NCBI GenBank assembly: GCA_013368315.1
Contig: JAACJM010000025.1
Coordinates: 496,001-560,000 of the forward strand
Direction of reading: 5' to 3'
Length of the DNA: 64,000 bases
DNA from: Tetrapyrgos nigripes
Lineage: Eukaryota > Basidiomycota > Agaricomycetes > Agaricales > Campanellaceae
This document shows, piece after piece, positions 27,712-49,473 of the stretch (its first letter is position 1; each line of letters begins with the position of its first letter). The notes below the pieces were generated by a model. It was not told the origin of the DNA. It saw nothing but the letters and a program-made list of their open reading frames with translations, and ran no database searches. Both the position numbers and the translations under genes were made by a program.

Positions 27712-29945
27712 TTATGTTTGCATCTCCCCGTTAATGCTATGCCAAAATGCGCAATGCTCGTTTAATTCTTGGGATATCTGCTCCATACCAATTGCTGCGG
27801 GACGGAATAGGATTCTTGGATTTCCGTCATTTGAGGTATCTGTTACGGCCTGTGCAACGAATAGAAAACGAAGTGGGTACAGTTCATGATAACGAAACAA
27901 CAATCAAAAGTAGTTTGAGCACTCACATTCCAGGTAACACCTGAAGAACTCGAAGTTGGCTTTCCAGTGGTGACAAACGAAGTAAAGAATTCTCTCATTG
28001 CCTTGAACAATGCCTGGTCATTGGCATCTGCATTGGCAGGTGTGTCTGCTGGGAAGAATGCTGCCAGATCGTTTCCGTGGTTGGATCCCAGATGGGGATT
28101 GTCGTAGCTGGTAGAGGCATCGGTCAGTGAAAGCTCTGTAGCCAGAAGCGAAGAAACCCACTGGTATTGATACGCTGCCAACCGAGCACTCGTCGCACTG
28201 GCCGTGATCAACCCGGCCGTACATATATATCTCGCCTCTCCGTACATTTGTTGACCTTGTCGATCAAACGAACCACCAAAGTCGCTCAACGGGTACAGAT
28301 TCAGGCCCTTGTTGAATGAACCTTGTGTAAACGTGTTCCACTGCCCTTGAATGAAGTTGAAAACTGTCGACTCGTTAGCGTTGGGTGAAGCAGTGTTGGC
28401 GGCGGGATTTGGAAGACCCGAAGACCAGCCTGCGCCTTCGTTTGTGTTGGAGCTGATTACAGAATGGGATAGACAGTGAGGAGGATAGTTACGCGCGTAA
28501 TTTGATCACACATACCCAAACAATACAGGAACCTTTGCAAATTCCCCACTCGTGAACCCTTCCACTGGTCTTGTAGCAATAAAGTCGCCGTCGAACAACG
28601 GAGAAAAGTTGAATAGAGTCGAAGTACGGTTTGCGACCAGTGCATTCCACCCATTCGTCAAGGCACTCAAGGAGGCGGAACGAAGACAAGCCAGGGTGTT
28701 GGCGTTGGCACCACATCCTCTGCATGAAGGATTTACGTCATTAAAAACGCGGCAGATATTTCACAAGAGGATACTCACGCATTGGACGAAAATAGGTTGA
28801 ATATGCCTTCGATGTAATCACTGTCAAAAGAAGGTGTAAAGCTGAGAGAAGGGCTGTCGCCCATGGCTGCATGGAAAAGTCCTTCTGGGTTACCACCATT
28901 CGCTAGGAGATGGAACATTGTGCTTCCAGCTCCTGCAGATTCTCCCCAAATGGTGACTAGCGATAGGAGTGAAGTAAGCATTTTGTGATGGTCAGAGTCA
29001 GTTAAAAATCCACCTTTGGAAGGGTCACCCCCAAACTTAGATGCATAACGTTGGAGCCATCTTAGAGCAACTCTCTGTACTCTCGTTCCGTGAATAGATG
29101 TAATCGCAAATAAGAAGACCTCTTACCTGATCTTGGAGCCCAGCATTAACTTGGCCATTCGCCTTCAGTTTAGCCCCGCCTGTGAAATCCGGTTAACGAC
29201 TATCTGTCCTATATTTACGAGAGCTTTCATACCCAAAAAGCCCAAGGGACCCAGTCGATACGCGAATGAAACAAACATAATTGGGTTTGCTGAAGACTGT
29301 ATGAGCAGCCTTGGGTCAAAATCACGTGTACCTCCGCTTTGGAAGCCACCACCTGCAAAAATAGTAACGTAAATTTGAAATTCTTGAAACGAAGAACAAA
29401 TCATACCATGAAACCAGACCATGATCGGAAGCTTTGCGTTACTCGGCGTTCCAGAAGGAACAAAAATCTATGACGGTCTCTGCATGAGCCGACCGAGAAG
29501 TTTTGAGGATAAGACACGAACATTTCCGAAAAGGCAATCCTCAGATGTACCACTTCCAGTCTGGCCTATCGAAGCGCATATGGGTGCAAACTGCGAGAGG
29601 TGATTAGAGACAAGTTCTCATGAAGATGACACGCTACCCACTGCTGTTGCATTAACTGTACCCAGGTTCGTTGAGGGAGGAGACACTGCAGCTCGCCATC
29701 GAAGATTTCCGGTTGGAGGATCAGAGAAACGAATTCCCAGAAAAGATTTTACTCCCGTCGATGGGCTGTCAGTTCCTCTGAATGTGCCGTCTAAGAGATG
29801 GTCAAGAAACATTCTCATGCAGGAAGTAGATGCGACACATACAATCTAGAGTGACCGATGGCTGTTGAGCATATGCCACGAGACAGGGGAGTGCTAGGGC
29901 TGAGAGTATCAGTTTTGCTGGCGACGGTAAGGGGAATGTCATCAT
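27712..29945 (-). CDS. secreted type-B carboxylesterase/lipase
   Basis: Multi-exon alpha/beta-hydrolase of about 540 aa. It starts at the ATG at 29945 (first exon to 29843) with a signal peptide MMTFPLPSPAKLILSALALP. Exon 2 (29790-29642) has GVKSFLGIRFSDPPTGNLRW. Then GTSEDCLFGN and, after an intron with donor GTTCGT, FVPSGTPSNAKLPIMVWFHG (the oxyanion region), YRLGPLGFLG, LRWLQRYASKFGGDPSKVT and the nucleophile elbow TIWGESAGAGS. The acidic catalytic residue fits NTNEGAGW, and the His fits SNHGNDLAAF. The last exon encodes LFRPAAIGMEQISQ and ends at 27712. All exons can be joined without a lesion, so the enzyme is probably active. It is a secreted esterase acting on unknown esters, possibly plant-derived. 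Confidence 0.88.
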
Positions 29946-30954
29946 TGTCAGGACGAGAAATAACTCTGCATTATTTATGCGCGCCCTAAATGCTTCGATG
30001 CGGCAGTCAGTCATTTCCGTCGTTCCGTGAATGAGAGTTTTTTAATATGCGACGCATAAGCTGAGGTCGGCTGATCGCAATGACGACTGAGGGAAACAGA
30101 AATAGAAATCGATGAGGGAACGAGCTGGTCAATAATCATGGCGTAGGATAGTGGTAGAACAAAATAGGAAGCAGTCTACCTCAGTGCCTGACCAGGAATA
30201 TCGCGAGGGAAAAGGTCAGAAGGTCATTGAACCATGTTGGCCTTTTCTGAGGTTCCTGGGCTCGTCATTCAAAGGCCAGAATTCAGCTGCAGGCTGGGAA
30301 CAACTCTAGTGCAACGGCATCATTGTGCACGACAATGGTGGCCGCCATGCGGTCAACTATACCGGAACGTTTGTGCCTAGTTTTCCACCCGTAGAAATGA
30401 AAGCAAGGAGACTCGGGTAGTCCCAAAAGTTCGAGTGCTTAAGCGCTCAAGGTGGAGACAAGAATACGTGGACGTGGATGATGATGGTCGGCGCGAGGTG
30501 CGATGAGTCACGGCCTGAAATTTGAATTTGAAAGCCGATGCACTGTGTCTTTTTTTACACCCTCTTGGTACTCTCCTGGCACCCGCTATCATCGCTATAA
30601 ACCTCCTCTGAGGTTCCCCATCTGTCGGAAGATATAGGCGCTGGATTCAAATGAACACCTTATCTCCCGAGACGGGCTGAGGGGACCGTCTGAATCAAGT
30701 CACAGACATCCTAGCTGGTCGGAGTAGCCATATCAACTTGATGGTAATGGCAGCTGAGGACTATGGTAACCAAGGCGAGTAAAGCGGTCTCATCGACAGA
30801 AATGGTCATGAAGGCCTCTTTTAGCCGCTAGATGCACGAGTTGTACTACTGGTATAATAAAAGAGTACATTTCAAACCCTCAAACCTGTTTCTCCATCCT
30901 GTCGCGTTCCGGTATCCTTGCAGCCAGCCCCTTTCATCCTAACTGGTGGAAAGA
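29946..30954. other. divergent intergenic region
   Basis: Upstream of the carboxylesterase (-) and F-box (+) genes. TATAATAAAAG at about 30851-30861 may serve as the TATA region of the F-box gene. No gene seen. Confidence 0.35.
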
Positions 30955-32855
30955 ATGTCCATGCCAGATGTACCAGAGGATATATGGCGTTCTATTGCCA
31001 ACTTGGTTCCAAAGCACATACTGCGTAATATGTATGAGGTGAACGGCACTTTTTATGACCTGGCGATGAACGAGCGCTATCGAGAAGTCAACTGCGATCG
31101 GCTTGACAGTACAATGCGGAGACTCTTGGAAGAATCGAGGTAAGTACTTACGTCCAGCGCTCCTCTGTGTTTTGCTAACGCATTTTCTTCACAGTTCTAC
31201 AATAACTCAGCCAATCCGGCCAGTCGCTTCCCGTGTCCGTGTTTTCAGAATGAGACTCTACTTCATCCAGAAGCTCATCCATCTCCAAACGCATCACCTG
31301 CTTCATCCAAACGACGTCTTCACCTCACCCACCTTTGTGTCGCTCTTTTCACTCTTACAGAGTTTTCCGAGACTTAACGAATACCACATTGACTGGCACA
31401 ACCTACCTACGATTTCCGACCCTTTGCTACAACTGCTCGTCCGTCCTTTCATATATCCCAACCAACTTCGGAAAGTTTCTCTCGATATTGGAATGGAAAA
31501 ATTTCACGCTTTCGCTTCTTTTCTCTCTCAACATGCACCTTTGATTGCACTTGAAGAACTCTCCCTGATTCTCCGACACGAGGGACAAGTCTTCAACGGG
31601 CCGACCCATGCAAACGCATTTCATAGTTTGCTTACGAGTAACACCATTCCTTCATTCATCACGCAATCCCAAAACCCCAACACCCTACGCTCCCTTACTC
31701 TTGAATTCACTCATGCCGAAGATTTCTCCTCTGTATTCTGGTCCCTCGCCCAATGTGAGTCTGTTGGTCAACCAGCCTTACGCCAGCTCCAATCTCTCAC
31801 CCTCTCCATCCCAACTCCATCTCCACGACTCGGCGATCCCGCAGCCTTAGCTGCTTTCATCTCAGCCCACTCTGCAACGCTCACTGACCTGACTCTCCGT
31901 GGTCAATGGGAACATAACTTCGAACTAGGTCTCTCTGGACTCCCGAGTCCCTCATTCTCTGCATACATCGAGAGATGTTTCTCTCAAATCTCTCTCCCAA
32001 ATCTTACTTCTCTTTCGATCGCTACAACGTCTTATCCCATTCCGACGGCTATTGCTGTGGTAGCCAACTTCGTTGGGTCGTTGACAGAGCTGGATCTGAC
32101 GGGAAGTTACATGAGTTTCGTTGATGTTGAAGAGCTTGTTGGGGTCTTTAGAGTGTCTCTCTTGTTGGGCCAGCGTGCAGGGCAATCTTCGTCTCCGCCG
32201 TTGAAGGTCTTGCAGATCGGTCCTCTATCACTAAGCCCACAGCTCGTGGATCTATTGGCTGAGGAACTCCCCGGATTGAGAGAGCTCAACATAAGGGTCA
32301 GGGACGCGGTACCTCACAAGGACGACCAGCCTGTTTATCACGGACTCGGGCGATTTGTGGCAGGGAGAAAGCTTAGAAAGCAGATGCCGGAACAAATCGT
32401 ATGTTTTTCACCTACCTTCATTGCTGGATCTCGTCAAGTAATATTCCTTTTTCACGTCTTCTTCCTCTACACAGCATGCATTCTTCCATGAAATGAAAAC
32501 TCGTCTTTACGCCGACTGGCAACTCGAGGAGATTGGTGTTTGGAAGTTTGACACTAGATTGCAATTTCAGCGTCAATACGCCAAGCTGTTTGCGAGATGT
32601 GTGCCAAGTATCAGATTCCCCGAATCAGTGCGCAAGGAAGCTATGATCTCATCTGAGGAGCTTCCAATGCTGTCGTCGCCATCTGCTTGTGCGGTTGAAG
32701 CGTCGGTTTTATCTGCGTCTGTATCTCAGCATACCCTTGCACTTGCTCCTTTGACGGATGACGTCCCAACGGTCTGCGGATGGTGTGCACTCTCTGATGC
32801 AGGATTGAGTACTACTACTAATGGTTCTGGATGTCGATGCAACGTCATCCGTTAG
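30955..32855 (+). CDS. F-box / leucine-rich protein
   Basis: Exons 30955-31139, 31195-32398 and 32475-32855 give 589 aa. The N-terminus has the F-box pattern of basidiomycete proteins: DVPEDIWRSIANLVPKHIL, then YEVNGTFYDLAMNERYREV. The middle 350 residues hold irregular leucine-rich units (for example LRSLTLEFT, LQSLTLSIP, LTDLTLRGQW, LTSLSIATTS, LTELDLTGSY, LKVLQIGPLSL, LRELNIRV). Such proteins serve as substrate adaptors of SCF ubiquitin ligases; the target is unknown. The ATG at 30955 is chosen because the frame starting at 30946 opens with GTG. The last 40 residues are serine- and cysteine-containing and less conserved, so the exact C-terminus is less sure. The family is large in Agaricomycetes. 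Confidence 0.82.
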
Positions 32856-33715
32856 ACGTACCAGACTTTGACCTGTTACCGGTATCTGACCGAGCACCGT
32901 TGGTTGATGCTGGGAGGCGGCCCGAAACGAATGGACAGTCTTTTTCGCTGCCAACTTGGATATTGTAGATGATTTGATCAAGAACCTTCCTTTTTCTCTC
33001 TCGCTTTCTTTGCCGTAGATATGGACTATGGACTTGTTGTGCTCAAGGACACTATCGGACACATATGGACTCGTGCTCAAAGACACTCCTTCCTACGTAG
33101 ACAGTTATCTCAGATGCTTCGCTTTCGATGTCGTTACCTGGGCTCATGGACGTTTTTTGGACAAATTGTATTTATAGCATTATTTCTCTCTCTTTCTTTT
33201 TGTACTTACATACGGACTTGTACTCTCGGATACTGTTGGACATGCTTTCGGGCTCGCGCTCAGAGACACTTTTTGATGTATAGTATTACGCTCGTGGACA
33301 TTTTCTAGTGCGAAGTCGGTTACATACTTAGGTAGAACCATTGAGATCTGGATGGCTCTGCATTGAAGCTGGTCAAGATGGGTTGAAGGGACATTTCGTT
33401 TTTGGGACTTCACAGAAGTAGATAATTCTGACACTTAACAATGTATAAAGTAGAGCAGCGCCTCGCTACCGTTGATAGTAACCGTACACAAAACACGATG
33501 AGTTGAAGGAAATGAAGATGGAAGGAGGCTGACGTCTGAGATATGAGACTGACGAGAATGGATCATAAGTAGATATCATTGAAAAGATGATGAGAGGAAG
33601 AATTGGAAGCAGTCATTGTGGCCATTGAACACATTGGGCTGAAAACGCGCTTTCAGCCTTGAAAACCTCCTGGTTCCTGAGCATACGAGACTCGTCCTCT
33701 TTGCTACTTTATAAG
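32856..33715. other. gene-free region with a degenerate tandem duplication
   Basis: Two diverged copies of about 100 bases are visible. One lies around 32985-33090 (CTCTCTCGCTTTC, then GGACTTGTTGTGCTC, ending GTGCTCAAAGACAC). The other lies around 33175-33275 (CTCTCTCTTTCTTTT, then GGACTTGTACTC, ending CGCTCAGAGACAC). No gene supported. Confidence 0.4.
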
Positions 33716-34139
33716 TTAGAGGGCCTTGCCTTGCCTAATATCAATAGCCATAGCCCCGCCCTCCTTTTCCCGCTTCTCGCTTGTATTGAGATAGGATAGG
33801 ATAGGATATGCCGGCACTACGGATCCGTGAGGATACGGCCTACAACGCCCCTTTCCAACAGGATAGCAACGTTCTTGTAAGTCTGCCTCTCGAGCAGCGA
33901 CATCGACCAATCCCGAGTTTTCCTGTACGGCGAGATCATTCTCAGTAAGTGAAAGAGAGTGAGTCTTAACACGGATACATACCTCTCACTTGACTGTCCC
34001 CTAACGAAAGGGACAAGACAAGGTAAGGACAGCTCGGGTACGAGGGAAGGAGACAAAGACTCACCACGGGAATGGGCGACGCCGCAATAGAGACGAGGAC
34101 AGAAAACAAGACAGTAGCGAGGAACGCAGATACGCGCAT
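33716..34139 (-). CDS. small secreted protein sharing a signal-peptide exon with the 37.6-kb gene
   Basis: Two exons: 34139-34065 (25 codons) and 33940-33716, giving 99 aa. Exon 1 is a clean signal peptide beginning MRVSAFLATVLFSVLVS. It is the same length as, and matches at 13 of 25 positions, the first exon of the proline-rich secreted gene at 37579; in both, the intron follows codon 25 in phase 0. The mature part reads NDLAVQENSGLVDVAAREAD, then ERCYPVGKGRCRPYP with two cysteines, and one KR pair near the C-terminus. The intron is 124 nt, longer than usual here, and its acceptor (CTGAG) is weak, so exon 2 is the less certain part. No domain recognised; an effector-like or peptide-precursor role is only a guess. 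Confidence 0.5.
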
Positions 34140-37100
34140 CTTCGATTTCGACGGTGCGTGTGTATCCAGCTGAAGTGGGTTGTGAACTGGGCAATCGGTG
34201 GGATGCTAGCGTCCTATATCTAGAGTAGATTTGCCAGGAGTCCCCGCAAGACACTACAGGAAACCCCTACTACGTGGGCTCACCTTAATCCAAAGTCCGG
34301 GACGGGAATCGAAAACCAGAACAGGGAGCAGCCGCTTTGATACGGTTACCGATAGATTGAGCCAGGGAGATAGTTTGAAGGTATTGCAACTTGCGTTAGT
34401 CTTGATTCTTTCTTGGGACATATTTACTTGAAGTTTTTCACAGTGTAGATTTGGTGTAGATATGCAACTACCCGAATGGAAAAACGGATGATATGAGCTG
34501 CATCTCCTGAAACAAAGCCTGTAAATGATAGCCTCGCACAGTGGACAAACGAGACCAGTGAAGGTAGAGTGACGCATTGCATCGTTGATCGCATCGATCT
34601 AAGGAATCAAAGACTACTAGCATAGACGCGAACCTAGCTGCATTGAACCCAGTATCAAAAGAAGTATTGTCGTCCTTATGCAAGGTGGCAGTGGATGGTC
34701 TTCAACGTTGGCAGTGGTTCGAGTCGGATTCAGGATATTGCACAGCCACACTTTTGTTCGTTGTTCTTTTAGCCGAGATGTCAGCTCACTGTCGCAGGGA
34801 CAGGCACTCATCGCAAACTCATCGATGCATCCTCCTCTCCATGCAATCCACCGGTATTACCAGACCAATGACCTCGCAATCTATCGGACAGCCACGTATT
34901 AGCTACTCAAGATACTGGACACGATTAATTCCCTATTACTGCTGCTAGCATGCCAGAACCAGTCGCATGCGTACCTAGATCCCCGTGCTTGAAATACCAG
35001 CCAGAGCTTGTTGAGAAGCCGAAGACACTCGTGGAACAACTGTTGAAGACCGACCAGCGTTCATTTCTCAGCAGTTCAGCAACCGGTTCAAGTCATCCAG
35101 GCGGAAGGACAGGTGTTCACACTGCCGAGGAGTCGAAGGAGGAGCTACGGCAGGTGGCACGGATACTTATCTTGTTCGTTAGGCTTGATCATTCACATCA
35201 CTGACCGGAGAATCATGCTGCTGCTCTGTGCTCTGAGTTTCCCATTGGATAGTCCTTCCGACCATTTTCTATGTACGCCTCTCTACACGCTCCTCTTATA
35301 GCCCGCTAATCCATGCCACCAGCCAGTGACTCCTGAGGAAGAGGACTTTCTGTGATGGACAAATAGCTTTCTGCCCAGGCGAAGGCAGCTCATCGACCAG
35401 CTCGGAATGGATAATAAGCAGTGGGATAAAGAGGAGGTAGTCAACAGGCTCAAAGCTAAGTAGAATTTTGCAAGTAAGCAATCTTTCCTCTCTTTGAGAC
35501 TCTCGCAGTGATTGTGATACTTGAGAATCTTTTTATATCAACGACAAAAGTCTCTCCGGGAAGCTGTTGACTCGGAGGTTCTGGTTCCCCATCCTGATAG
35601 AATTATTGCCCAAGGAGCGCATTTTCTGCACTACATATGTCGAAACGGACCTTGCGAGCTTCAGGAGAGGTTTTATCTCCGAGCGACAGGCTGGAACAAG
35701 GAACGACATTGGGAGTCTTATTCGATTATTGACACCGACAACGACATAGGCTCAAAGCTGAACCCGAATCTACCCGTCTCAGCCTTTGTCCCCATGACCA
35801 TGGTAATTCCAACCCAAAGTACAGAATTGTCGCGTACACGAAGACCAGGTATATCTTCTAGCGATGATAGTCAACCTTGAACCTTCACTTCAAACTTGAC
35901 GCATATCAACCCGACTCTCCAAACCCTAGATTCACGCATCAATATTAATGATGATGGATGGGATATTCTATTATCCAGCCCAGTCTTTCTATTTATCCCA
36001 AATTTCGAGCGGATTCCTGAACCAAAGCCAGATGCGAATGGCTAGGTGGTACACTTTCTGTAGAAACACTTCTTTCTGTAAACAATTTGTCCAGTTGCAC
36101 TCCTTACCGAATTTGTACAATGACACCCTCCTTCTCAGAATCCATCAACCAGAGGGCTGCAACGGACTGAGAGTGGACGTCGTTCCAAACGTCGTCGCAT
36201 GTGGCTGTGTGATTTCCTTATTCAAACGACTGAGGCGCGTTCGATCTCGCAACTACCAAATCATTTAACCGCCGTTGTTCGGAAGACCTTTTTTCTCTAA
36301 TTTCTACACCTCAAATAATTGCGCAGGTCTTGAACTACGAAGACTACGTATGGCTGCGCCGGCTACATGGGTGTAAGCGAGGCACATTGTTCATCTTCTC
36401 CCAAAAACCAATTCTCCAAGTTTCACGCACTGGACGGACATGTACTGTTGGAATTTGACGCACAACCTCGAAAGTCGTGTGTTCCAGTCAATTTGAATGC
36501 TGTTGTTTCTGGTGATGCTACAGCTGAGTAGCTAGAGGTATCTAGGTGTGTGGACTGATCCTATGAAATCGATGGAAGGTACATACTAATCCCATTCCAA
36601 GCGCGACAACTCGCAGTTGTGACCTGCTCCCTAGCTCTTACCCCAAGCGTCAATCTCAAACTCTGCCTCAAATGTTATTCATGCAAACGGTGGCCGGTGA
36701 CTATCCGCCGAGCTCCATTAGCAGGACAAGAACCTCAGAACTTCAACAACTCGTTCACCCGTTCACATAATGTGCATGTCGTGTACAGACAGCAGCTCCT
36801 CATTCTCAGTCGCAAACTCGGACATCTTTGGCTCGTGCTGAAGCTCTGTTAGGCGGTTATTTCCTCAGTAGGACTTTCTACCAACTTTCTACGCAAACAC
36901 GGCATCTGTCAGAATGGCAGGTCACCTTCTCGCGTTTCGAAGACAATGCTTTGTTCCATCTGCTCCGACTTATCGTCTTACGTCGTTGTTTGAAATAGCT
37001 CTAAATAATTGCTCACTTCCTCTTGTTCCTTGTATCATTTCTTCGGTGCCACTTTCTAACTCGCATTCTATTTTCGTCAGAGCTCGTGCTTGGCCGCATG

Positions 37101-37578
37101 AAAAATGGCGTAAGTAACTGCTCTTGACTCGTAAGATTCAGAAACTCAGTTGCGAGTTTACTACTCTAGATTTTGCGACGGGTCGGATGGGGAGCACCAC
37201 AGACATTGGTTCAAAACCATCGAGAAGACTACGGTGCGCAGCAACCCAAAATTAGACGAGTCGCCTCCTCATAATTTGAAGGCTTTTCTGCTTCAATATT
37301 CAACTGCTATGGACCTATGGCGTATACCACTTGCGAACCCACGCACCGATTGGCAAAATAGTCAACTTCCGGCGTTGTTTTGTCATTCTGCGAAGAATTT
37401 CTCGCTCCACTGCCTCTGCTGCGCTTACCAGAGTTCTAGTACCTCATAACTTCACCAGGTACTAGCGATGGCGTTTAAAAGGTTCGAGAATTATCGCACT
37501 TCTCTCCAGTTCCAACGAACACTCCTCTCATACACACTCATCTCACAGTAATCCATCTGCCTTTCGCTTCTTTTCAAC
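34140..37578. other. 3.4-kb region without a supported gene
   Basis: Contains only short open frames, for example at 34950-35204, 35521-35880 and 35948-36268 on the plus strand. None shows a recognised domain, repeat structure or convincing exon chain. There are no transposon ends or RNA genes that I can see. The last 100 bases are the promoter of the secreted repeat gene: a TATA-like TTTAAAAGG lies near 37473. Confidence 0.3.
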
Positions 37579-38792
37579 ATGAAAACCTCTGCCTTCTTCG
37601 CTACTGTTTTGCTTTCTATCGTCGTGGCCACGACTGCGATGCCTCTTCCTATGGTGAGGATCCGTTTGTGGCTTTCTTCCTGTCATTTACTGATATAATA
37701 CCTTCCTAGCCCGATGGAGGGTCTCTCCAGGTAGTCAAAGGTGGGGAGCGCCAGCCGCCTTCGGTTTCTGGGCTACTCCCGCCTGGTGACGCGCCACACC
37801 GGCCTGCACCTACCAAGCGTGCTGACGAGGACAAACCAGCTCATGCTGACGAGGACGGACCTGCCCCACCACCACCTTCGGGTTCTGCACCTCACCAGCC
37901 TCCTCCTTCCAAGCGTGCTGACGGGGACAAACCAGCTCATGCTGGCCCTCCCCCACCACCACCTTCGGGTTCTGTCCCACACCAGTCTCCTCCTTCCAAG
38001 CGTGCTGACAAGGACAAACCAGAGGACAGACCTGCCCCACCACTACCTTCGGGTTCTGCGTCTCACCAGCTTCCTCCTTCCAAACGTGCTGACGGGGACA
38101 AATTAGTTCATGCTGGCCCTCCCCCACCGGATTCTGCGCACCACCAGCCTCCTCCTTCCAAGCGTGCTGGCGGGGATAAACCAGCTCATGCTGGCCCTCC
38201 CCCACCACCACCTTCGGGTTCTGTGTCCCACCAACCTCCTTCCAAGCGTGCTGACAAGGACAAACCAGCTCATGCTGGCGAGGACAGACCTGCCCCACCA
38301 CTACCTTCAGGTTCTGCTCCCCACCAGCTTCCTCCTTCCAGGCGTGCCGACGAGGACAAACCAGCTCATGCTGGCCCTCCCCCACCACCACCTTCGGGTT
38401 CTGTGCCCCACCAGTCTCCTCCTTCCAAGCGTGCTGACAAAGACAAACCAGCTCATGCTGGTCCTCCCCTACCACCACCTTCGGGTTCTGTGCCCCACCA
38501 ACCTCCTTCCAAGCGTGCTGACAAGGACAAACCAGCTCATGCTGGCGAGGACAGACCTGCCCCACCACTACCTTCGGGATCTGCGCCCCACCAACCTCCT
38601 TCCAAGCGTGCTGACGAGGACAAACCAGCTCATGCTGGCCCTCCCCCACCACCACCTTCGGGTTCTGTGCCCCACCAGTCTCCTCCTTCCAAGCGTGCTG
38701 ACGAAGACGGACCTACCCACATCGGAAGTGTTCGTCCACCACCCCCACCAGCTGGCAAGCCCTCTGGCGGTGATGCTAAGGATGCTCAGTAG
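37579..38792 (+). CDS. secreted proline-rich repeat precursor with dibasic (kexin-type) sites
   Basis: Two exons, 37579-37653 and 37710-38792, giving 385 aa. Exon 1 encodes a 25-residue signal peptide (MKTSAFFATVLLSIVV...). Exon 2 encodes about ten repeat units. A unit begins right after a basic pair with ADxDKPAHAG, continues with PPPPPPSGSVPHQ, and ends PPSKR before the next unit. Eleven dibasic sites are present, ten KR and one RR, each preceded by Ser or Thr and followed by Ala. This is the layout of fungal Kex2-processed repeat proteins, whose repeats are released as peptides in the Golgi; some are RiPP precursors. Units vary: some replace the GPPPPPP stretch with EDRPAPPLP. The C-terminus (RPPPPPAGKPSGGDAKDAQ) is not repeated. 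No tailoring-enzyme gene such as a UstYa-like protein is visible nearby. A structural proline-rich wall protein is the main alternative. Confidence 0.72.
37810..38720 (+). repeat. coding minisatellite of the secreted repeat gene
   Basis: Direct repeats of roughly 70-110 bases marked by CCTTCCAAGCGTGCTGAC and CCAGCTCATGCTGGC. They are nearly identical in DNA as well as protein, so the array expands or is homogenised at DNA level. Unit lengths alternate because some units carry an extra GAGGACAGACCTGCC segment. Confidence 0.85.
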
Positions 38793-39333
38793 GCTGTTGG
38801 CTAGCAACTCCGGAAGGTAAAGAGGTATAGCCTCAAATCATACATAGGTGTAGTAGCATGATATGGACATGGACTCACTCTTTCGACAATATTAATGGAC
38901 AATTTATTTTCTGATTTCACCCTTCTTTCTTTCTCTCTTAGCTTCAATTTCACGGTTCGCCGTTTTCCCTTTTTTGATAGAAATAAAATACATAGATCGG
39001 ACTACATCGGACTTCATTTAGTACTCCTTACTAGCTACGTTCTTTTCTGAACTTTACCTTCTTTAGAACCCTCCTACGTATACTTCAATCTTTGGCGAAT
39101 TCAAGGACTGTTCACCATAAAGTGATATATCATGAGGCCTTCTTTTCTTACGACGCTCCGTTCTAGATAACATACTCGCCGGACAATGAATGATAGGCGA
39201 TGTCAACAGGCTGGTACTGGACTTTTGAAGCTTGCAGCTTCAGTCATTAAAAGGGTATTAAGTGCTATTCGATATAGGGTACGAAACCGTATGTATATAA
39301 CGCAGAACAAGTCACTAGCGACGGAATAGTATA
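38793..39333. other. intergenic region between convergent genes
   Basis: 3' regions of the secreted repeat gene (+) and the N2227 gene (-). A T/C-rich tract lies at about 38920-38940. No gene. Confidence 0.35.
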
Positions 39334-40669
39334 TCACATCTTCCTCGCAACAAAAAACTCTGCTTCGTACACCCACCTCATCATCGCGCTCTTATCCGCT
39401 GTGTACTCGCAAGGTATCGTCCGTGGTCTGAAGCATTCCGGTATCCTATCCAGATCCTCTTCAACGTCCCCGCTCCCAATTTTCCTCCCATCTTCCCCGT
39501 ACCCAACCACATCCAACCCAACCATCTTCGCAACCCTTACAATTTCATTCAAACTGAGTTCTAAATTCGACCCTCCAGCTCCGGGATACGATGCAGAACT
39601 GGTGTAGAGTAATGGACCGAGGTTGATCCAAAGTCCTCCTGGACGTAAAAGGTGATGAATATGATTAAGGGTGGAAAGGATGTTTGGGGAAGTGTCAATG
39701 AAGAAGAGGGTTACGAGGAGGTCGTAGCCGGGAGTGGGTTTTGAAAGGGAGAGGAAGTCACCCTCGACGAGGGTTAGAGAGCCTCCGTTTCTTTGAGGGT
39801 CTGTTAGACGGGGTACGGTGTCGGGAAATTTGATTCCCCTGAATGAGGTTAATGAGTTTCGGTCTCCTCCTTCACCGTCTTCTCCTTCACCCCTCCACGA
39901 ATGCCTCTGATGACTAAACCAATGCGCATATGGATGCACTTCATGCTGGCCAACTGCATTCGTCGTCGTTTCGTCTAGGAGAAACTGAAAAGCCAGATTC
40001 ATATACATCGACAACTCGCATGCTGTCGTGTCGTATCCGAGTAAAGAAGCTTCGTATGCGAGTCGGGAAAGGCCTGAGCCGGGGATGAGGAGGGACTTGT
40101 ATGGACCAGAGGTATATGGTATAGAAAGACTCGTAGATTTAGAGAGGTACCGAAGTACATCAAGAATCGGTGTAAAGATAACTTTTCGTTCTGCGTCGCC
40201 TGCAGTGGACCAGTCCCTTATAAAATGCTTCAGTGCTTCTCGGACACGAACAAGCGAAGCAGTCGTAGCATAGCTGTTCCTCGTCCTCGGTGGTAACAAC
40301 CACCCAAACACGGATTGAGAGGTTAACTCGCTTTTCGCTGACGCGATTTCTTGAGGAAACTGCAGTTCTGCCGATGCAGCAATTGCTCGTGTCACTTTCG
40401 CGTTTTTTTTGGTATATTTCTGCCAGACGGTTGAGTTTGCCTGGGTAGCCTATAGCGTATCCGAGCTTTTTGTGTGGATGAGGAATGGACGCGTAGGATG
40501 TACGCATGCGTGCTAGCTCGGTGTTGGACATTTGTAGGTAGGAAGAGTAGGATGTGTATGCGGCGGGAAGTGAGAAGATTCCATGGGGTTTTTTGGGAGG
40601 CGTTGTGGAAAGAGCGAAGTAGGCAATGAACGAGAGGGATAGGAGGAGTGCAACGACTGCAAAAAACAT
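39334..40669 (-). CDS. N2227-like (carnosine N-methyltransferase family) protein, frame broken at an A8 run
   Basis: SAM-dependent methyltransferase of the N2227/CARNMT1 family. The N-terminus (ATG at 40669) has a hydrophobic anchor, FFAVVALLLSLSFIAYFAL, then LGYAIGYPGKLNRLAEIYQK. The downstream frame opens in TRAIAASAELQFPQEIA and contains VREALKHFIRDWS, ERKVIFTPILDVL, the SAM site LLIPGSGLSRLAYEASLLGYD, CELSMYMNLAFQFLL, YAHWFSHQRH, LVEGDFLSLS, DLLVTLFFIDTSPNIL and LRPGGLWINLGPLLY. The two parts lie in different frames. The switch falls in CCAAAAAAAACG (A8 on the coding strand, plus-strand T8 at 40403-40410): seven As would join them seamlessly. This is a homopolymer sequencing error or a real one-base insertion. 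Apart from that the gene is complete, about 440 aa. Confidence 0.8.
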
Positions 40670-41004
40670 ACGCGAATTACGTCACTCAAAGTCTTCGCTT
40701 TTGACCGTCATCGTCTATACCCTCGATAATCTCGTTTTTCATGTCCAAAATGATTGCATCGATATCAAGAATGCCAGGCCTGGTAGGGCTTGAGATGCCA
40801 GCGCAATTCAAAAAAACTTGGAAGCGTCACTAGTTTGGCGCCAGTCGCCTTAGACGCCAACTGCTGTTGAACTGCTGTATCGTCGTCTTTCTACCTCAAC
40901 TTCATCGCAACTCCCCGCTGCTCGTCGTGGTGCAGCTCTTGCTCAATCTGTCCTGGTCTTAAAAGCCCTTCCCGAGCTCTCTAATTCGGTAGGTCTCATT
41001 GTGT
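40670..41004. other. divergent spacer
   Basis: Between the N2227 gene (-) and a hypothetical gene (+). It may contain a 5' UTR exon of the latter ending near 40989 (CTAATTCG|GTAGGT). Nothing else. Confidence 0.3.
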
Positions 41005-41651
41005 ATGCATCCTGTTTCTCAAAATCTTGACTGGACGCCCAGCCCATCTCTTTCCAACGCAATGCCTTCTCCAGCTCCTTCCTTACCAGCTGCGCCTATA
41101 GAGACTTCATCTTCACCTTCTAGTGCTCGTCGTCGTCAAGGAAGAGCAGGTATGTCTTGGTTTAGAAATGAGCACCTCTGCAGCATTTACTCACCCAATG
41201 GTGTTCAGGACCTGCTAATGCCAATGTGACGCCCGTCGATACTGCTCCAGCTAATCAGGCTGCCTTCGATACTGTCAGTGCCGTGAATACTATCGAGACA
41301 GTAACGCGCACGACTCAAACGTCCATCCAGATGTTCAATCAGTCACGTCACCCAGAATTCCATAGCTCCTCACTGAGTAGCGTTGGTGGTGATGACAGAC
41401 GTAGCAATGTCACCTACAACTACAACTGCAGCATCGGCAGCATCTCACTTTCAAACATCACCCTTGCTGCCAACACCGAAGTAACCATTCATTTTGGTCA
41501 AGATGGAAATATTCAGCAGCATCCTCGTCATGCTAGACTGGAGACGGGAAATGTAGGCTCCCAGCCCGCTGTGCGAGTTGTGTCGAGAGGGCGAGATGAT
41601 GAAGCCCCTTCCCAAGCACGTTCTGGTGAGTTCGTTCTAATTGGTTGTTAA
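41005..41651 (+). CDS. hypothetical protein
   Basis: Exons 41005-41149 and 41209-41651 join in phase, giving 195 aa. The N-terminal 48 residues are serine/proline/alanine-rich and end in basic ARRRQGRAG. The second exon starts PANANVTPVDTAPANQAAFD and contains a short beta-strand-like block, NVTYNYNCSIGSISLSNITL, then NTEVTIHFGQDGN. A possible donor (GTGAGTTC at 41624) could replace the last eight codons and extend the gene past 41731. No family recognised. The ATG at 41005 is the first in frame, but a 5' exon is possible. Confidence 0.5.
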
Positions 41652-43539
41652 GAATAGAAATCTCAATTGGAATGTTCAATTCAGTCGTAGATCTCGATGT
41701 ATTCAATATTGGTACCTTATTTTTTTTTTAAAAACAGTACATAACTACATGGCAGCCCTTATGGCAGAAAGACGTGATCGATGATCATTGAATTAGAACG
41801 GTCTGTGGCTGTTCTAATAGAGACTAGTGCCTTGCAGATAATCTTTCTCAATCCCTCTACTGGTGCGCTTGAAAACTTCACCTTTTTTTAGCAGATCGTC
41901 ATATTGTCTGTCTAGGAGAGGCAACCTTTTGTTACCTAGCGCATCTTCACCGTTCCCTTGATTACTTGTTCTTGACACGTAGGCATACTCAATTATAGTA
42001 TAACCGTGCATCTATCTTTCTACACGGTTCAATAATCTACAGTATCAGAAGTCGAGGGAGCTCATGAACTCAGCGCTCATCAGGACTACGTGTCACTCTA
42101 TCTCACCGTGTCCCCGTTGATGAAAAAAAAAAGAAACCCAAAAAAGCCAAGTAAGGATGTGAGTGCAGATCGAAGAACCCTACATATATTAGAGAGTTTG
42201 CGATTTCGGACCGGTCCGAAATTTATGTTGCGGGTTTCTAATTTTTACTGATACTGCCACGTCTGCCCTCTTCACTGTTTCCTCGTCCGTCGTCCTAGAT
42301 GCTCAAGACACGCGGTCAGCGTGCAAGAGCTGACCCAAATGATGAAGCTGCTCAACGGGATTTTCGGACACGGTCGAAATCGCAACGCGGATTTTCACGT
42401 GACCGTAATCGCAAATAAGCTAGGTTTTCCGCTAGAAAGGAGAAATGAGTACTCAGTGTAGAGTACTTGAGGAGCCAACAACCGGTTATATACTAGTTGG
42501 GGTTTGCCTGAGGGCTTGGCCCGAGAGGTTCGGCGCAAGCGGCAAAGCACGTGATTTGAAACGTGATTGCTTGCGAGGCGCGTCGCGATCGGGACAAGGA
42601 CGCGAAAGGGTTTCCAGAAAGGAAACCCAAAGAAAGAACCTCTTGGGACCAGACCTGAGCTTCCAGGGTCCAGACGACGAAATCTTAAGCCATCTGGAAC
42701 ACCCAGAAACTAAAGGGATGCGGTGGGTGGGAGCAAAAAGGAGAGAACGAGGAGAGAGCGTGTGTGGACGAGGCGAAGATGAGAGGGACACGTCGTCAAA
42801 GCGCGTCCCAGTATGGCTCATCCTTTCACACGCTCTTTCTAGCTTATCCTTAGATAAGCCCTCGTTCCTCTGGCTTATCGCGGAACTCTCTATTATATAA
42901 GTTACGTATGTATTTACTTTTGAGCCCCACTCATCAGCCCGTTCCTTAGACCCTGCACACCATCGACGTCCACAACACTTCTCAACCGGAAGATCAGCAC
43001 TCGACCGTCCGAGGCCAACATCATCCTGTCTTTGTGGAGTTATACCAGTGACGAGGCCTACCTTGCAGCCGCTTGTTTTTCCTCATAGAAAGGCACGAAG
43101 ATGCCGGGGTGTGCAGACGAGGAAGTGAAGCCGACATACTTGGCGTGTACTGTCTGGTTAAAGGTGCCTTCCTAATCAAATCACCATTGTGCCAAGACAC
43201 CCTCTCCTACGTCCATCCCAGCTGCCTCAATGACTACGGCTAGCTTTTTCGTCCCAGATTCAACAGGAAAAGTCCCCGCATAACTCAACCGCACTCCATA
43301 TTCACCTTCTCCGATGTTTAAGTATCCCTTTTGATTTAGACTGCCATACTCAGAGTAGACATGATTCTGAGCACGTCGAATGTAGTAGAATTCATACTCG
43401 TATTATACAGTGAGGACTGTTTATGTAGTTGGATACACAAGGTCTTGTACAAAATATAAGATACCTATAACGTTACATGTTGGATGTACGAGCTTTCATT
43501 TTCAGTCCCTCTTTCAAAAGCCAAGCAAGAGTCTATCCA
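41652..43539. other. intergenic region with one doubtful small basic ORF
   Basis: Mostly featureless. A 39-codon basic frame at 42299-42418 (begins MLKTRGQRARADPNDEAAQR) is noted but not proposed as a gene. The 151-codon frame at 42445-42900 has no recognisable content. A T9 run is at 41721-41729. Confidence 0.3.
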
Positions 43540-45091
43540 TCACCAATGCGCAACATCCGCCTCAGCCTCCCCAAACACACTGGTCTTCTTGATCTCGAAA
43601 TCCCCAGCATCTGCCCCTTCCAAAGCACCTCCAGCCCCATCACCTTCATACAACTCTGGAAATTCCCTCTTCAAAAACCTCATCACATGCCCATTAATCT
43701 GCTCAAACTCCAACAAAAACCCATCATGTCCATCCGGAGACTGTACAGTCACTAATTCACTCTGAGGGATATGCGAAGCGATTTCTCTCTGTTCGGTCGG
43801 GGTGAAGAGGCCATCTGTCGATATACTGATGACGAGCGCGCGAGGTGGGAGGGTAGAAAGTACTCGGGGAAGAGCAGAAGTTTCTGGTTCTTCGTTCCCG
43901 TCAGCGTCGATTTGATGTCTATCTCGCGAAATATCGTGCGTGTCGAGTTTACGAGTGATGTGGATATAACAGTTTGCGTCGAATCTGGCTGTGAATTTGT
44001 CTCCTTGGTAGCGAAGGTATGATTGCGCTGAGAAGATGCTGGGTTGAGAGGAAAACTCTGCGGCTGCTGTTGTTGGAGGTTCAGGAGAGGTAACTCTGCT
44101 AGATTGAGAGTTTCTATGCCCATCGTTATGCGCAAACCGCGCATCGTCTTTTGCGAGGATTTTCGGTGAGCCAGGAGGGGTGGGTATACCCTTCCGTCCG
44201 GTGCCGGCTCCCGTTCCCGTTCCCATCCCATTCGTGTCCTCTTTCTTAATCTGCGCCTTCCTCCCAAACCTCTTCTCAAAAGAATCCCTACTTCGATACG
44301 TCAACAGAGCAGCCATTCTAGCAGCAGCCAGTCCAGTCGCAGGTTGAGATTCATAATAGCCACCTTGGTAACCTGGATCTGCGTAGATGGACTGCCGTTG
44401 GGCTTCACCCCATGATATACACCAAGCAGAGTGTTTGGCAGAGGTGGCAAGAGGAACGATGTGTTTGACGTAGCCTGGGGGTGAACATAATGGCCATTCG
44501 AGGACTGCCATGCCACCCATGGAACCGCCGATGACGACGCCGATGGAGGAGACGCCGAGGTGGTCGAGGACGTGTTTGTGCAACCTTAAATGGAAAGAAG
44601 TGAAGATTGGAGAGAGAGAACCTTGACATTAGAACAAGAAGTAGAAAAGAAAAAAAATAACGCACCTAACGTCATCACGAATACTGGTAGGAGGAAAATC
44701 TGGCCCATACTTAACACCAGTGTCTGGATTGACTGTGATTGGAGAGGCAGTTCCATAGGGTGATCCAAGTACGTTTCCGCAAAAGATAAACCACCTTCTG
44801 GGATCGAAAGCTTTTCCAGGACCCATCAGAGGTCCCCACCTACAAATCGCATACCGGACAGTAAGCTCAGAGTTTTCAAACTAGGATTGGAATATGAAGA
44901 ACGCACCAGTCAGGAACATCCGCACTCCCGGTAAATGCATGACAGATAACCATCACATTGTCTCTAGTTTCGTTCAGAGTCCCCCATGTCTTGTATGCGA
45001 CCGGTACATCGCGCAGTTCGGCACCACATTCAAGAGTAAAAGTTGGCACATGAAGATATTCTTGTTCAATCAGGTCGTTTAGGTTGGACAT
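43540..45091 (-). CDS. met2: homoserine O-acetyltransferase
   Basis: Transfers acetyl from acetyl-CoA to L-homoserine in methionine/cysteine synthesis. Exons 45091-44907, 44839-44666 and 44584-43540 give 467 aa in phase. It is an alpha/beta-hydrolase-fold enzyme: FTLECGAELRDVPVAYKTWG at the start, NVMVICHAFTGSADV, then WWGPLMGPGKAFD, NVLGSPYGTASP and the nucleophile motif GGSMGGMAVLEW with Ser near residue 141. The acid and His fit ISTDGLFTPTEQ and SPDGHDGFLLE. A low-complexity insert (GMGTGTGAGTG, residues about 220-260, then serine/proline-rich) lies before the lid region SYLRYQGDKFTARFDANCYI, as is common in fungal Met2. The C-terminus carries an acidic, alanine/glycine-rich tail of about 40 residues. 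No lesion. Confidence 0.95.
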
Positions 45092-45605
45092 GGCCTCTGG
45101 ATACTTTCGGGATAACAGGGTGCTGGAGTTTGGGAAGATGATAGCGGTTGTGGACAGACGAGGGTATTAGTGATTAAGATAAAGCCGTGAAACCAAGTCG
45201 TTTTGATCGGTTGTGATGCCAAGCAAGGTATTTAGAGGTATATAGAGGACAGGACCACTTGTTAAGTATCTGGTGGTATGAAGGAAACACGGCAGAGATG
45301 AGTGCGTATTTGAACGAAAATTTTGAATGAGAGTAAATCTCGGGATTTTCCCGGGGACGGAGCTACACCATTTAGAAGTTCGGCATAAAAAGGTCCCATA
45401 TGGAGTAGTCCGGCTTCTGTCAGTTCAAAAATGCACTCATCCCCGCGGTGAAAGGAATTCTGGTGAAAGTCGTGTCGAGTCACTTCAGAAAAAGTCATCA
45501 CTTTCTATAACATCCACAGTTATAGGGTCTGTAGCTTAGTAGATTGTTCTGTACACTATACTCTAACTAAATTTGAAGACATCCATGGACGACGACACAA
45601 CCTCT
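45092..45605. other. spacer between met2 and the NRPS-like remnant
   Basis: Presumed met2 promoter region. It contains an inverted copy of the CCATATGG-type dispersed repeat at 45361-45408. Confidence 0.4.
45361..45408 (-). repeat. dispersed repeat, inverted copy (45.4 kb)
   Basis: On the minus strand it reads CTACTCCATATGGGACC, then ATGCCGAACTTC and GGTGTAGCT, collinear with 49474-49525. Confidence 0.5.
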
Positions 45606-46264
45606 TTAGTTATCCAAAAATCCAATCCGACGCCAATACCCAATCCACTTTTCTACATCTTCATAACCCAGCTGACGCTTCGTCAACTCCTTCAGAGTCT
45701 GGCTGTTTTCCACCGCTCGAGTTGTAATCAACGATGGAATCCCCATGAATTCACCTTCCCCTTTATCAGCAGTCGCTACCTGAGCTTGGAAAAATTCCAT
45801 AAGCTTCAAGGCGGCGGGGTTACGAGCTGGGTCGTTGGTGGAAGTCTGGGACTGGGACTTGATCAATTCGTCTATCCATTGAGCATATGGGACTACCCCG
45901 GCCTCGATGGAGGGTGCGACGAGGTCAAGAATGAGCGAAGCCTTTGTAGGAGGGTGTACCAAGTTGGCAGCAAGGTCGATAGAAGACGACTCTACGCACC
46001 AACATTGGCAAGAATGGCTACCACTGGGTTAGTCTCTCCATCTCCAGAGGCATATCCTCTAACAAGACCGGCTGCTCGTCGTATCGCAACAGCCGGGTCT
46101 TTCCACACGACTGTCTGGAGCTCTCCATCTTCGTCGTAGCGAAAGAGCGGGTGCTCAGGACTGTTGGCACCGTGATAGTCAAAGAGTTGAGCGAGAGGTA
46201 GAGATTGGTCCTTAGGAGGCCTGGTGAAGGTAGCCCTGCCTTTGAACACGTCGTAATTCTTCAT
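45606..46264 (-). pseudogene. internally deleted NRPS-like adenylate-forming reductase
   Basis: Two ends of one large enzyme with nothing between. The first 89 codons (ATG at 46264; MKNYDVFKGRATFTRP, LAQLFDYHGANSPEHPLFRY, VVAILANVG) match the start of the adenylation domain of fungal NRPS-like reductases. The second part (about 45990-45606; NLVHPPTKASLILDL, GVVPYAQWIDEL, NPAALKLMEFF, ending VEKWIGYWRRIGFLDN) matches the extreme C-terminus of their terminal reductase domain. The AMP-binding core, carrier domain and Rossmann part, normally about 900 residues, are missing. The junction falls at a GTGCGT donor after NVG, so the deletion seems to run from the first intron to a late exon. No adenylating or reducing activity is possible. 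Confidence 0.75.
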
Positions 46265-47122
46265 GTTGAAATTAGAGTAGGGAGTACTGTGACAAGTATC
46301 GGTTGTAGGGGAGAAGGGATTTGTGAAGACATAGACGACTACTGGTGGTCCTTTTAAAGGGGATCTTTAGTACACTGGAAATGACATCGTCCGATACGGA
46401 AGAGTGTAGAACCTATCGCTGGGAAAAGCATAAGCACAAAGCGTATTGCGGTTTAATTTACCTCCCGGATTCGGGCACCACACTTGCAGCCTGTTATCCT
46501 TGGGACCGACCGATTCGTTCTGTTGACAGTTGGCCTATCGAGTAATGGATTCATCAGCAATTGCACTACTGCGAAGGTGTCGTAGAAATCGCAGTTTGAG
46601 AGGTTGATGAGCCTCGGGGACCAGTGAGGGCGACCAGTGGATGAGTGGACGACTCCGATGTTTGAGAGGTTGATGAGCCTGGGCCTCGGGGACTAGTTCG
46701 GGCGACCAGTGGACAAGTTTATCGAAGTCGTCAAACGAACAATGATATAATCATATAGGAGATGTTATCTGCCTGCCTGTCTATGAGACGTGGTGGTAAA
46801 GAACAAACGGAAGCAAATTCTAGCGTAGTCAACATTCGGGGTAACATCAGTGACGTGATGTTTGCCGCAATAATTTGCTTCCGCTCAACTTTCAAGTTGC
46901 TTTCAACTTCAAGAGCTCTCAAGGTCTCAAGGCACGCTGGAGGAGCTTGGAGGAGCAGCTGAAATTTGAAAGTATGGTCGTGGTTGACGTCGAAAGTATA
47001 ATCATGGCAAATCCTTTAACATTAGTACAAACTGAGTAGGATAAATTACAAGAGTGTCTACATAGCTGAAGCAGCACGTCCTTTCATGAATCATAGGAAG
47101 AAAAGAAAAAGACAGAAAAACC
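46265..47122. other. intergenic region with a 66-bp tandem duplication
   Basis: Upstream of the NRPS-like remnant and downstream of the next minus-strand gene. Apart from the tandem repeat at 46594-46720 no feature was recognised. Confidence 0.35.
46594..46720. repeat. tandem duplication of about 66 bp
   Basis: Both units start GTTTGAGAGGTTGATGAGCC (46594 and 46660) and continue CTCGGGGAC and GGGCGACCAGTGGA. The second unit has a 6-base GGGCCT-type insertion and a few substitutions. Confidence 0.75.
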
Positions 47123-48603
47123 CTAGTCTCTGAACTGAGACTGGAACGCAATAGCTCTAACCAAAACATCCTTATAAATATCCAATTCATTCCACAGGGA
47201 ACTCTCAAAGTACCCAACGAAATCCAAATTATCCCTCAACGCATTCAAAGACATCTGAATACCCACAAGGTCAATACTCTCCCTATTCGTATCAGCGATA
47301 GCAGCTCTGTTGGCGGAATACGCTATATCCCTGGCTACGGCGTCAAGAGTACGCGTAGCTTGAGGCGATCCAACCGTGTTCAGATCAATGAGTGAGTTCA
47401 ACGTGCCAAAGGACCCGGACACGGAACCACGGAGAGAAGAAGCTGACACTGAAGAAGCTGATGAACGGGCAGAGACAGACCCCGAAGCAGAATTGGAATT
47501 GGAGGACCTTCCCAATAATACACTGAACCAGTTCTTGCTCCTGTTGGTGGAACTAGCACTGTCATCGCTCGCAATGGACGAAATGGATCTACGAGGTGTT
47601 GGTTTGGCCCATGAGCCGGTGGTCTGGCTCTGACTTTCAGAACCGGTTGTGTATCCAATACCCGAAGTATTCAAGGGATGAACCATATCCCTAACCCATT
47701 CTGGGACAATCCTTCGGAGTAATTCTGCTTGGTTGTAGGTGTGGAGGAATACGACGAGTTCAGGGAAGGTCGCGAGGTTTGGCACACATATGCCTACACG
47801 AGGGAGCTCATCCGTCAGACGACGAGGAAGAGGTGAGCACTGCGTCGTCGCATGTCCAATTCTCTCGTTGAGATTGGGGCAGCCGAGGATGAAGAGGAGA
47901 TCGTTGATGGGCAACTCGAGACAGGAAGGATAGGTGACGGTGCAACCGCCACGGTCACGCTGTTTTGCACCATCCTGCGAGGCGTTGACGACGACAAGGA
48001 CGTGAGTTGGACCTAAAGGCCGGGGGGAGAACATTTTGGACGTCGTTGTCAAGCGTGGAGGTGGGATACCCTCAGACTCGAGTTTGTTCCCCACGTTGGT
48101 GAAAAGCCTGTTCTCGATACTGGTCATGCCGTCGAGAGGATTGAAAGAAGAACCAGAGGACAACCTTCTAGAATGTGTGTGTCCGGCGAGACTGAGGCTT
48201 CCTCTGTTGTTTTTTTCGTTCATCCCCCTTTCAGCTTCCTCTCTTTGTTCTCTCCTTTGTTCTCGAGCATCGCGGAAGAAGGCTGAAGTGCGTATGGTGG
48301 TCTTGCGAATCCTGACTTCTTGGTGGAGTTTGTGGAGGTTGAGCCACTCCCTGTGTGTTTACAGTCACTTTAGTACGCCAAAGACAAGAAAGACTTTATG
48401 TAGACGCACCCATTAACAAGAATGTTGTTGATCTTGAGGACATGCCTCAGCTCTTGAATGGACAGTCTACTCTCAAACAAATCTGAGCGGTCTGGTGAAA
48501 TTTCGCCGAGCCTTTTGCGGTCAATATCGCGTTCGACAGGCCGAGTACCCCCAAAAGACGTGTTGGGGGAGAAAGTCAAAAAGAGCATGTCATTGAAAGA
48601 CAT
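47123..48603 (-). CDS. basidiomycete protein, possibly Clp1-like (clampless family)
   Basis: Exons 48603-48410 and 48350-47123 join in phase, giving 473 aa. The order is MSFNDMLFLTFSPNTSFGG, LSIQELRHVLKINNILVN, a coiled, charged segment (REQRREQREEAER), then the best conserved-looking block: THVLVVVNASQDG, YPSCLELPINDLLFILGCPN, VGICVPNLATFPELVVFLHTY and PEWVRDMVHPL. It ends with a serine-rich region and a helical tail. The VPNLxTFPxLVxxL and PEWVRD blocks remind me of Clp1-like proteins, which control clamp-cell formation in Coprinopsis, but I cannot confirm the assignment. A further upstream exon is possible: an open stretch near 48880-48740 (MSRNERTMGSLRRVRI) lies just before, but I could not join it in phase. 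Confidence 0.55.
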
Positions 48604-49132: not shown

Positions 49133-49214
49133 GGCGCTATAGCCAAGTGGTTACGGCGACAGATTAGAAATCTGTTCCTCTTTGAGGGCGCAGGTTCGAA
49201 TCCTGCTGGCGTCG
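49133..49214 (+). tRNA. tRNA-Ser(AGA), copy 2
   Basis: Same 82-nt sequence as 18158-18239, with anticodon AGA at 49166-49168 and a T-rich Pol III terminator (T8) near 49233. The flanks differ completely from copy 1. Confidence 0.95.
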
Positions 49215-49473
49215 CTAGTATTGTGTAGTCTATCTTTTTTTTCTTCTGGCTACCCACAAACCCGGGGACGTGAAGAAACCAGGAATGCCTGCCTGCCTGA
49301 GTATCGGCACGCCTGGACTTTCCTTCCGTGAATTTCAATTTTCGTCGTTCTCATGACCAATGACGTCGACTCGTTCTCCTTCCGAAACACCTTGGGCGGC
49401 GTTGCATATTTCCAAAGATCTCTGTGCAAACTTAAATTTCGGATTTTTCAGTGCCATTTTTGCTCACCCGGAT

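Follow-up and report, generated by a model that had tools for sequence, protein, structure and literature searches.

A candidate KEX2-processed repeat protein of Tetrapyrgos nigripes with ten proline-rich units and an adjoining CARME gene

The KEX2-processed repeat proteins (KEPs) described in Agaricomycetes share a signal-like start, repeats bounded by KR or RR, and linear peptides as products, according to the available text of the surveys (PMC9769878, PMC6339444, PMC7329392). One survey, in its available sections, counts 7878 KEPs, of which 2560 have no homologues, spread over 1345 of 1461 strains, with about 5.3 per basidiomycete strain, and finds a DUF3328 gene near 103 of the 1680 KEP genes of Basidiomycota (PMC7329392). 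According to the accessible part of another, Coprinopsis cinerea has 31 putative KEPs across three studies, KEP peptides were seen by mass spectrometry in four Agaricomycetes, the knockout of six kep genes gave no phenotype, and KEPs are placed by the authors in interactions with the biotic environment (PMC9769878). Precursors with Kex2 sites are also described from Ustilago maydis in the portion of PMC4617103 at hand: Rep1 has amphipathic repeats of 34-55 aa that form amyloid-like fibrils, and Rsp1 is a 260-residue protein of hydrophilic imperfect tandem repeats of 18 or 21 aa with putative Kex2 motifs between them.

Here we analyse a window of 64,000 nucleotides from Tetrapyrgos nigripes (positions 496,001 to 560,000 of contig JAACJM010000025.1, C25 below) that carries a gene of this layout. 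The layout is of a known fungal kind, and the peptide sequence itself is new. By description the gene resembles Rsp1 in its hydrophilic imperfect repeats with intervening Kex2 motifs, but its units, at 24-30 aa, differ in length from those of Rsp1; with the dikaritins (ustiloxin and phomopsin precursors) it shares a signal-like start and KR-flanked repeats.

Gene anatomy, dibasic sites and predicted peptides

A sequence-only reading of the window had placed a secreted precursor of about ten repeats at 37579..38792, and our gene model has exactly these limits (Table 1), with ten units lying between 11 dibasic sites, ten KR and one RR; KK and RK do not occur in the precursor. Pro-Ser or Pro-Thr stands before every site and, as had been read, Ala-Asp (10 sites) or Ala-Gly (1 site) comes after it. 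The boundary proposed as Ser-Lys-Arg throughout holds at most sites; the first is Thr-Lys-Arg and one is Ser-Arg-Arg. When the mature residues were shuffled 20000 times, a mean of 2.08 sites and a maximum of 8 were obtained, and 11 or more in 0 of 20000 shuffles. The proposed unit consensus, ADxDKPAHAG followed by SGSVPHQ, describes the array in part: AD.DKPAHAG is exact in 6 of 10 units, SGSVPHQ occurs in 4 and SGSAPHQ in 3, and the window peptide type reads ADxDKPAHAG-polyproline-SGS[V/A]PHQxPPS. The signal-like precursor start has a best 17-residue hydropathy mean of 2.15, and the 267-bp period of the array corresponds to three units. A Pfam search of exon 2 gave no match at E 1, and RNA folding 3' of the gene gave nothing notable (z 1.39).

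Table 1. Features of the KEP locus, its duplicate and related loci (window positions unless a contig is named)
Feature	Position	Strand	Remarks
Two-exon candidate KEP gene	37579-38792	+	ATG at 37579, stop ends at 38792; 385 residues
Exon 1: start codon and signal-like N-terminus (MKTSAFFATVLLSIVVATTA), last residues MPLPM	37579..37653	+	71/75 bases same in paralogue
Predicted intron, 56 nt, GT..AG, phase 0	37654..37709	+	Paralogue intron of equal length and borders, 51/56 bases same
Exon 2: leader, ten peptide units, C-terminal tail, TAG stop	37710..38792	+	TRF periods 87 (9.8 copies) and 267 (3.5 copies)
Leader segment, through first dibasic site TKR inclusive	37710..37820	+	
Ten repeat units, 26-32 aa each with pair; KR ends 9, RR ends 1	37821..38696	+	
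C-terminal tail ADEDGPTHIG...DAKDAQ and stop; full tail ADEDGPTHIGSVRPPPPPAGKPSGGDAKDAQ	38697..38792	+	Hydrophilic, without GPI-type hydrophobic end
CARME gene (PF07942, carnosine N-methyltransferase-like), N-terminal hydrophobic anchor	39334..40676	-	E 1.4e-51; convergent, ends 541 bp from KEP
Inverted duplicate segment	34379..43949 vs C25:407804-415736		Piecewise, gapped; main pieces 89-95% identical; holds KEP and CARME
KEP-CARME-UstYa clusters	C93:107501-127300, C68:83001-92900, C31:548601-578300		KEP/CARME divergent; at least 2 UstYa matches each

The ten predicted trimmed peptides are 24-30 residues long and hydrophilic (GRAVY -1.03 to -1.50), with 27-37% proline, a net charge (K+R minus D+E) of 0 to -5 in 10/10 units, one to three histidines each, and Tyr, Trp or Cys in 0/10. 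One of them, ADEDKPAHAGPPPPPPSGSVPHQSPPS, has a predicted monoisotopic mass of 2652.257, and for another trimmed unit the value is 2926.432. Of the mature protein's 23 single basic residues, 15 stand directly before a proline (KP 10, RP 5). Over both gene copies, the residues after the site are AD, AG or TD in 17/17 cases, with Ala first in 16/17. The STE13 dipeptides XA or XP follow the Kex2 site in 0/17 cases in both copies, and an alpha-pheromone-like KEP was rejected on this signature. Proline-rich antimicrobial peptides are cationic and Arg/Pro-rich, and the honeybee apidaecins are cationic, proline-rich units in a multi-peptide precursor. The window gene is like apidaecin precursors in its proline-rich units and multi-peptide layout, but its peptides are neutral to acidic and the organism is unrelated; a cationic proline-rich antimicrobial was rejected on the net charges.

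The sequence-only reading had assigned the layout to Kex2-processed repeat proteins, and the assignment is borne out for both copies by the repeat definitions of three surveys, as judged by the identity measure of the present analysis. Where the available text of PMC7329392 asks for at least 3 tandem repeats of at least 8 aa between KR, KK, RK or RR, none longer than 100 aa, the window gene has 10 units of 24-30 aa and the paralogue 5 of 26-30. PMC6339444 asks for at least 4 KR/RR fragments, at least 3 of them alike, with repeats making up at least 15% of length; the minimum-motif share is 0.62 in the window gene and 0.53 in the paralogue, and 9/10 window fragments have at least 4 others at 70% identity (unit 4 has none). 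The accessible part of PMC9769878 sets an upper limit of 800 aa and asks that one fragment resemble 2 or more others; the precursor has 385 aa, with qualifying fragments 9/10 in the window and 5/5 in the paralogue (70% identity). The survey size class of 25-50 aa holds most window units, which, at 24-30 aa, are longer than the mushroom KEP peptides of up to 19 residues confirmed in the available sections of PMC9769878.

Compared with known Agaricomycete KEPs, the window gene has no sequence relative that we could find and carries two histidines per unit that are invariant where present. The search for homologues of the repeat in related species, proposed along with the first reading, found none in the protein database: the full-length precursor gave 0/7990 scored candidates at E 0.01 against 5.8 billion proteins in a word-based search whose candidates may have been crowded by polyproline words, and precursor residues 1-76 gave 0/104 at E 10. 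The neighbouring gene had 324 relatives in the identical protein database. Our literature search on proline-rich Kex2 repeats in mushrooms likewise found none. The earlier label of an undescribed peptide system therefore suits the sequence, which appears undescribed, and not the KEP system, which is already described in Agaricomycetes (PMC9769878, PMC6339444, PMC7329392).

A crude repeat-plus-dibasic scan of the window flagged two more ORFs, one on each strand. That on the plus strand (2893-3519, 209 aa) has 14 fragments between basic pairs, overlaps a simple repeat and is probably of low complexity. Elsewhere in the window we found a gene for a Mid1-type stretch-activated calcium channel component (24166-25337), a U6 snRNA gene (19034-19150), a pair of tRNA-Ser(AGA) genes that score equally in Rfam and lie 31 kb from each other (18158-18239 and 49133-49215), remains of a Copia-type retrotransposon with gag, integrase and reverse transcriptase ORFs (50415-55973, minus strand), and grouped hexamer and 18-mer tandem repeats (61663-63872).

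An inverted paralogue and the history of the array

A protein search of the genome (98.46 Mb in 587 contigs) found one further copy of the gene at a distance of about 120 kb, running from C25:413169 down to 412382 on the opposite strand. It encodes 243 residues with the exon structure of the window gene, six sites and five units (26-30 aa; 28-32 with the pair), and the copy-number change suspected earlier is thus seen as ten units against five. The copy lies in an inverted duplicate segment (Table 1), found with window positions 28001-47900 as the sole query, the main match covering about 9.6 kb of the window. On sequence comparison the inverted pair resembles a segmental duplication of local extent; an alternative is a haplotype palindrome created by mis-joining. 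Window pieces to the right of the duplicate also match C25:625-630 kb and C111.

Unit DNA identity inside the window array ranges from 0.84 to 0.99. Mean unit identity is 0.90 within the window array, 0.87 within the paralogue and 0.89 between the two; with within-array means about equal to the between-array mean, array-wide homogenisation has not taken place since the two split. Homogenisation, which had been read from the DNA, is visible in single unit pairs at 99% (A7/A10 and A9/B3). In exon 2 the copies differ in length in seven cases (3, 12, 9, 3, 3, 3 and 447), each divisible by three, in part because of the unit length; of the length differences in the 500 bp downstream 4/9 are so divisible, and of those in the 1 kb upstream 4/5.

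Identity between the copies is 95.6% over the 1 kb upstream, versus 91.1% in the intron and 91.2% over the 500 bp downstream. In the upstream interval (36579-37578) the window copy has TTTAAAA and the paralogue TATAAAA. For leader and tail together, a small sample with 10.5 and 3.5 changes, dN is 0.053 and dS 0.048, and purifying selection between the copies was not seen there; the neighbouring methyltransferase has a dS of 0.139 and a dN of 0.016.

Units (15 over both copies) were delimited by their sites, so that a lost site would appear as a double-length unit. Neither copy has such a unit, which means that every site inside the arrays has been kept. Across its 30 codons the basic pair has changed twice, once synonymously and once from K to R, and is still dibasic; in the codons ahead of it 57 amino-acid differences were counted over 397 cells, not including the invariant Ser that adjoins the pair. 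The two unit histidines are unchanged where present (14/14 and 15/15 units over both copies), and Gln follows the second histidine in 15/15 units, with four synonymous changes and varying positions around it.

The CARME neighbour and clusters elsewhere in the genome

The sequence-only reading saw no UstYa-like or other tailoring gene near the precursor. For UstYa this holds: the genome has 33 PF11807 matches, on 13 other contigs and none on C25, and the plain peptide release suggested earlier is probable. Since only 103 of 1680 KEP genes lie near DUF3328, such an absence is the rule in Basidiomycota, as far as the available text of PMC7329392 goes. The absence of UstYa from C25 and the Tyr-free units together make an ustiloxin-type cyclisation unlikely, and a dikaritin-type system was rejected.

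The other half of the statement does not hold in the strict sense, as a CARME methyltransferase gene is the next gene downstream (Table 1), although its lineage makes any tailoring role hypothetical. Carnosine N-methyltransferases methylate the histidine of a dipeptide, and the CARME of the paralogue matches carnosine N-methyltransferase 5yf0 (E 1.9e-33). The window CARME frame is broken in a homopolymer near 40400 (ORFs 39334-40449 and 40395-40676), which may be a sequencing error or a recent loss; the paralogue CARME is open. By a simple hydropathy rule, an N-terminal hydrophobic stretch is present in both C25 copies and in 105/120 relatives among the matches listed. Of the best 120 of 324 relatives listed, 105 carry an organism name, all Agaricomycetes as far as recognised; the closest among the matches listed are a JGI record (78%) and Dendrothele bispora (62%), and three species appear twice.

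We built a tree from 24 of the 120 listed homologues and the six loci of this genome, with domain pieces cut by hand; 8/24 lack the motif used for cutting and were taken at full length, the last exon is missing from the C93 piece and the C20 piece is incomplete. In this tree the C25 pair groups with P0001 and Dendrothele (support 1.0) within the sampled Agaricomycete proteins, and the CARMEs of three clusters at C31, C68 and C93 make up a clade of their own (support 1.0), separate from the C25 pair. The C25 CARME is probably an old general gene. With its lineage widespread in Agaricomycetes, its adjacency to the KEP gene may be chance; by a rough post hoc estimate, a given gene has a KEP next to it with a probability below about 0.3% (5-31 KEPs, assumed 25,000 genes).

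Six loci in the genome match CARME, namely the two C25 copies, C93, C68, C31 and C20, and five of the six (C25 pair, C31, C68 and C93) have a KEP no more than about 2 kb away. The CARMEs at C93, C68 and C31, which sit in clusters with UstYa matches (Table 1), also have the N-terminal hydrophobic stretch. The gene models of these clusters are rough, with a signal-like KEP start in C31 only. Their KEP cores are VPHDYGLAKEEVVD (C93), VPHEYGPDAVEAL (C68) and [A/N]PHVYALSEDEAVS (C31), with a few deviating units, and read X-Pro-His-x-Tyr in nearly all units; the His would become N-terminal if Xaa-Pro were removed. Among the best candidates scored in searches with the C68 and C31 precursors, KEPs of this type occur at two places on C68, on C93, at the start of C87, and on C31 both as the precursor itself and in a second region. 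The C87 start (C87:1-2550) is 99% identical to the C68 KEP over 195 residues and cut by the contig end, and may be a haplotig, an overlap or a duplicate. In the window units [A/V]PH occurs 8 times, against a mean of 0.91 and a maximum of 5 in 5000 shuffles; we gave this likeness to the cluster cores zero weight because repeat copies are non-independent.

The three clusters are possibly a new fungal RiPP cluster type, as judged from their gene content. That fungal CARME-family enzymes, anchored in the secretory pathway, would methylate histidines of Kex2-processed peptides in general is an idea we hold to be unlikely. Literature searches for carnosine N-methyltransferase together with UstYa, and for N2227 with fungal methyltransferases, found no paper on such a cluster, and the available text of PMC6245584 names DUF3328 and N2227 once each, amid general GO terms and domains.

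Proposed processing and alternative readings

We consider it likely that the window gene is a KEX2-processed repeat protein that releases peptides by Kex2 cutting. This reading is supported by the gene anatomy, the site pattern, a paralogue of the same layout, a frame kept open through copy-number change, and a kexin-type domain in the genome (one P-domain match, C3:528174). The N-terminal signal would direct the precursor into the secretory pathway, where a Golgi kexin would cleave after each P-(S/T)-(K/R)-R, ahead of Ala-Asp (once Ala-Gly), and a Kex1-type carboxypeptidase would remove the basic pair. The expected output is ten linear peptides of 24-30 residues with a leader piece and a tail. 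The most likely role of the peptides is extracellular, as signals specific to the lineage or in interactions with other organisms, and not that of a structural coat. We infer secretion, cleavage, trimming and function of the precursor, and draw the extracellular role solely from the KEP class.

The same precursor could instead be a secreted proline-rich protein of the cell wall or matrix that works uncut, its basic pairs incidental. The proline content of the units does recall extended wall proteins, and as the units are duplicates, the conserved KR could in part reflect shared descent; yet no site was lost in either array while other codons changed, and Ala stands after 16/17 sites over both copies. 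Moreover, the units are without cysteine and the tail lacks a GPI-type end (a GPI-wall protein was rejected on its hydrophilic tail), and we regard an uncut protein as improbable. A decaying repeat gene without present function would fit the similar dN and dS of leader and tail, the failure of protein searches to find relatives and the broken frame of the adjoining CARME. Against such decay, which we find very doubtful, stand the frame that is open in both copies through seven length changes with every site kept, and the closer identity between copies upstream than downstream. Least probable are the repellent-type surface peptides to which the locus had been likened: a precursor layout with Kex2 sites is common to it and Ustilago maydis Rep1, but the window peptides are shorter than the amphipathic Rep1 repeats (PMC4617103, available portion) and hydrophilic, and their high proline content disfavours amyloid.

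A modification of the released peptides must also be weighed. The adjoining CARME might methylate their histidines in the secretory pathway, either before Kex2 cuts or afterwards, which would make them small RiPPs. CARME is the next gene in both C25 copies, its solved relatives are carnosine N-methyltransferases, it has the N-terminal hydrophobic stretch, the two unit histidines are unchanged where present, and three other CARME genes of the genome sit between KEP and UstYa matches. Both copies, however, stem from one duplication and count once, and histidines of repeated units are non-independent evidence. The window CARME is broken in frame and belongs to a lineage found across Agaricomycetes, the cluster CARMEs being a separate clade, and its orientation to the KEP gene is convergent whereas that in the three clusters is divergent. 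We consider methylation of the window peptides quite improbable.

Read as a KEX2-processed repeat protein, the window gene adds a sequence-orphan, well-delimited member to a class of largely unexplained functions; its 10- and 5-unit copies form a natural comparison pair, and exact peptide masses are predicted. If fungal CARME-family enzymes did methylate histidines of Kex2-processed peptides, the window gene would represent a linear branch, free of UstYa, within a class of fungal RiPPs with methylated histidines. The clusters are a more interesting lead than the window gene and, if they are real, a class of histidine-modified fungal peptides becomes testable.
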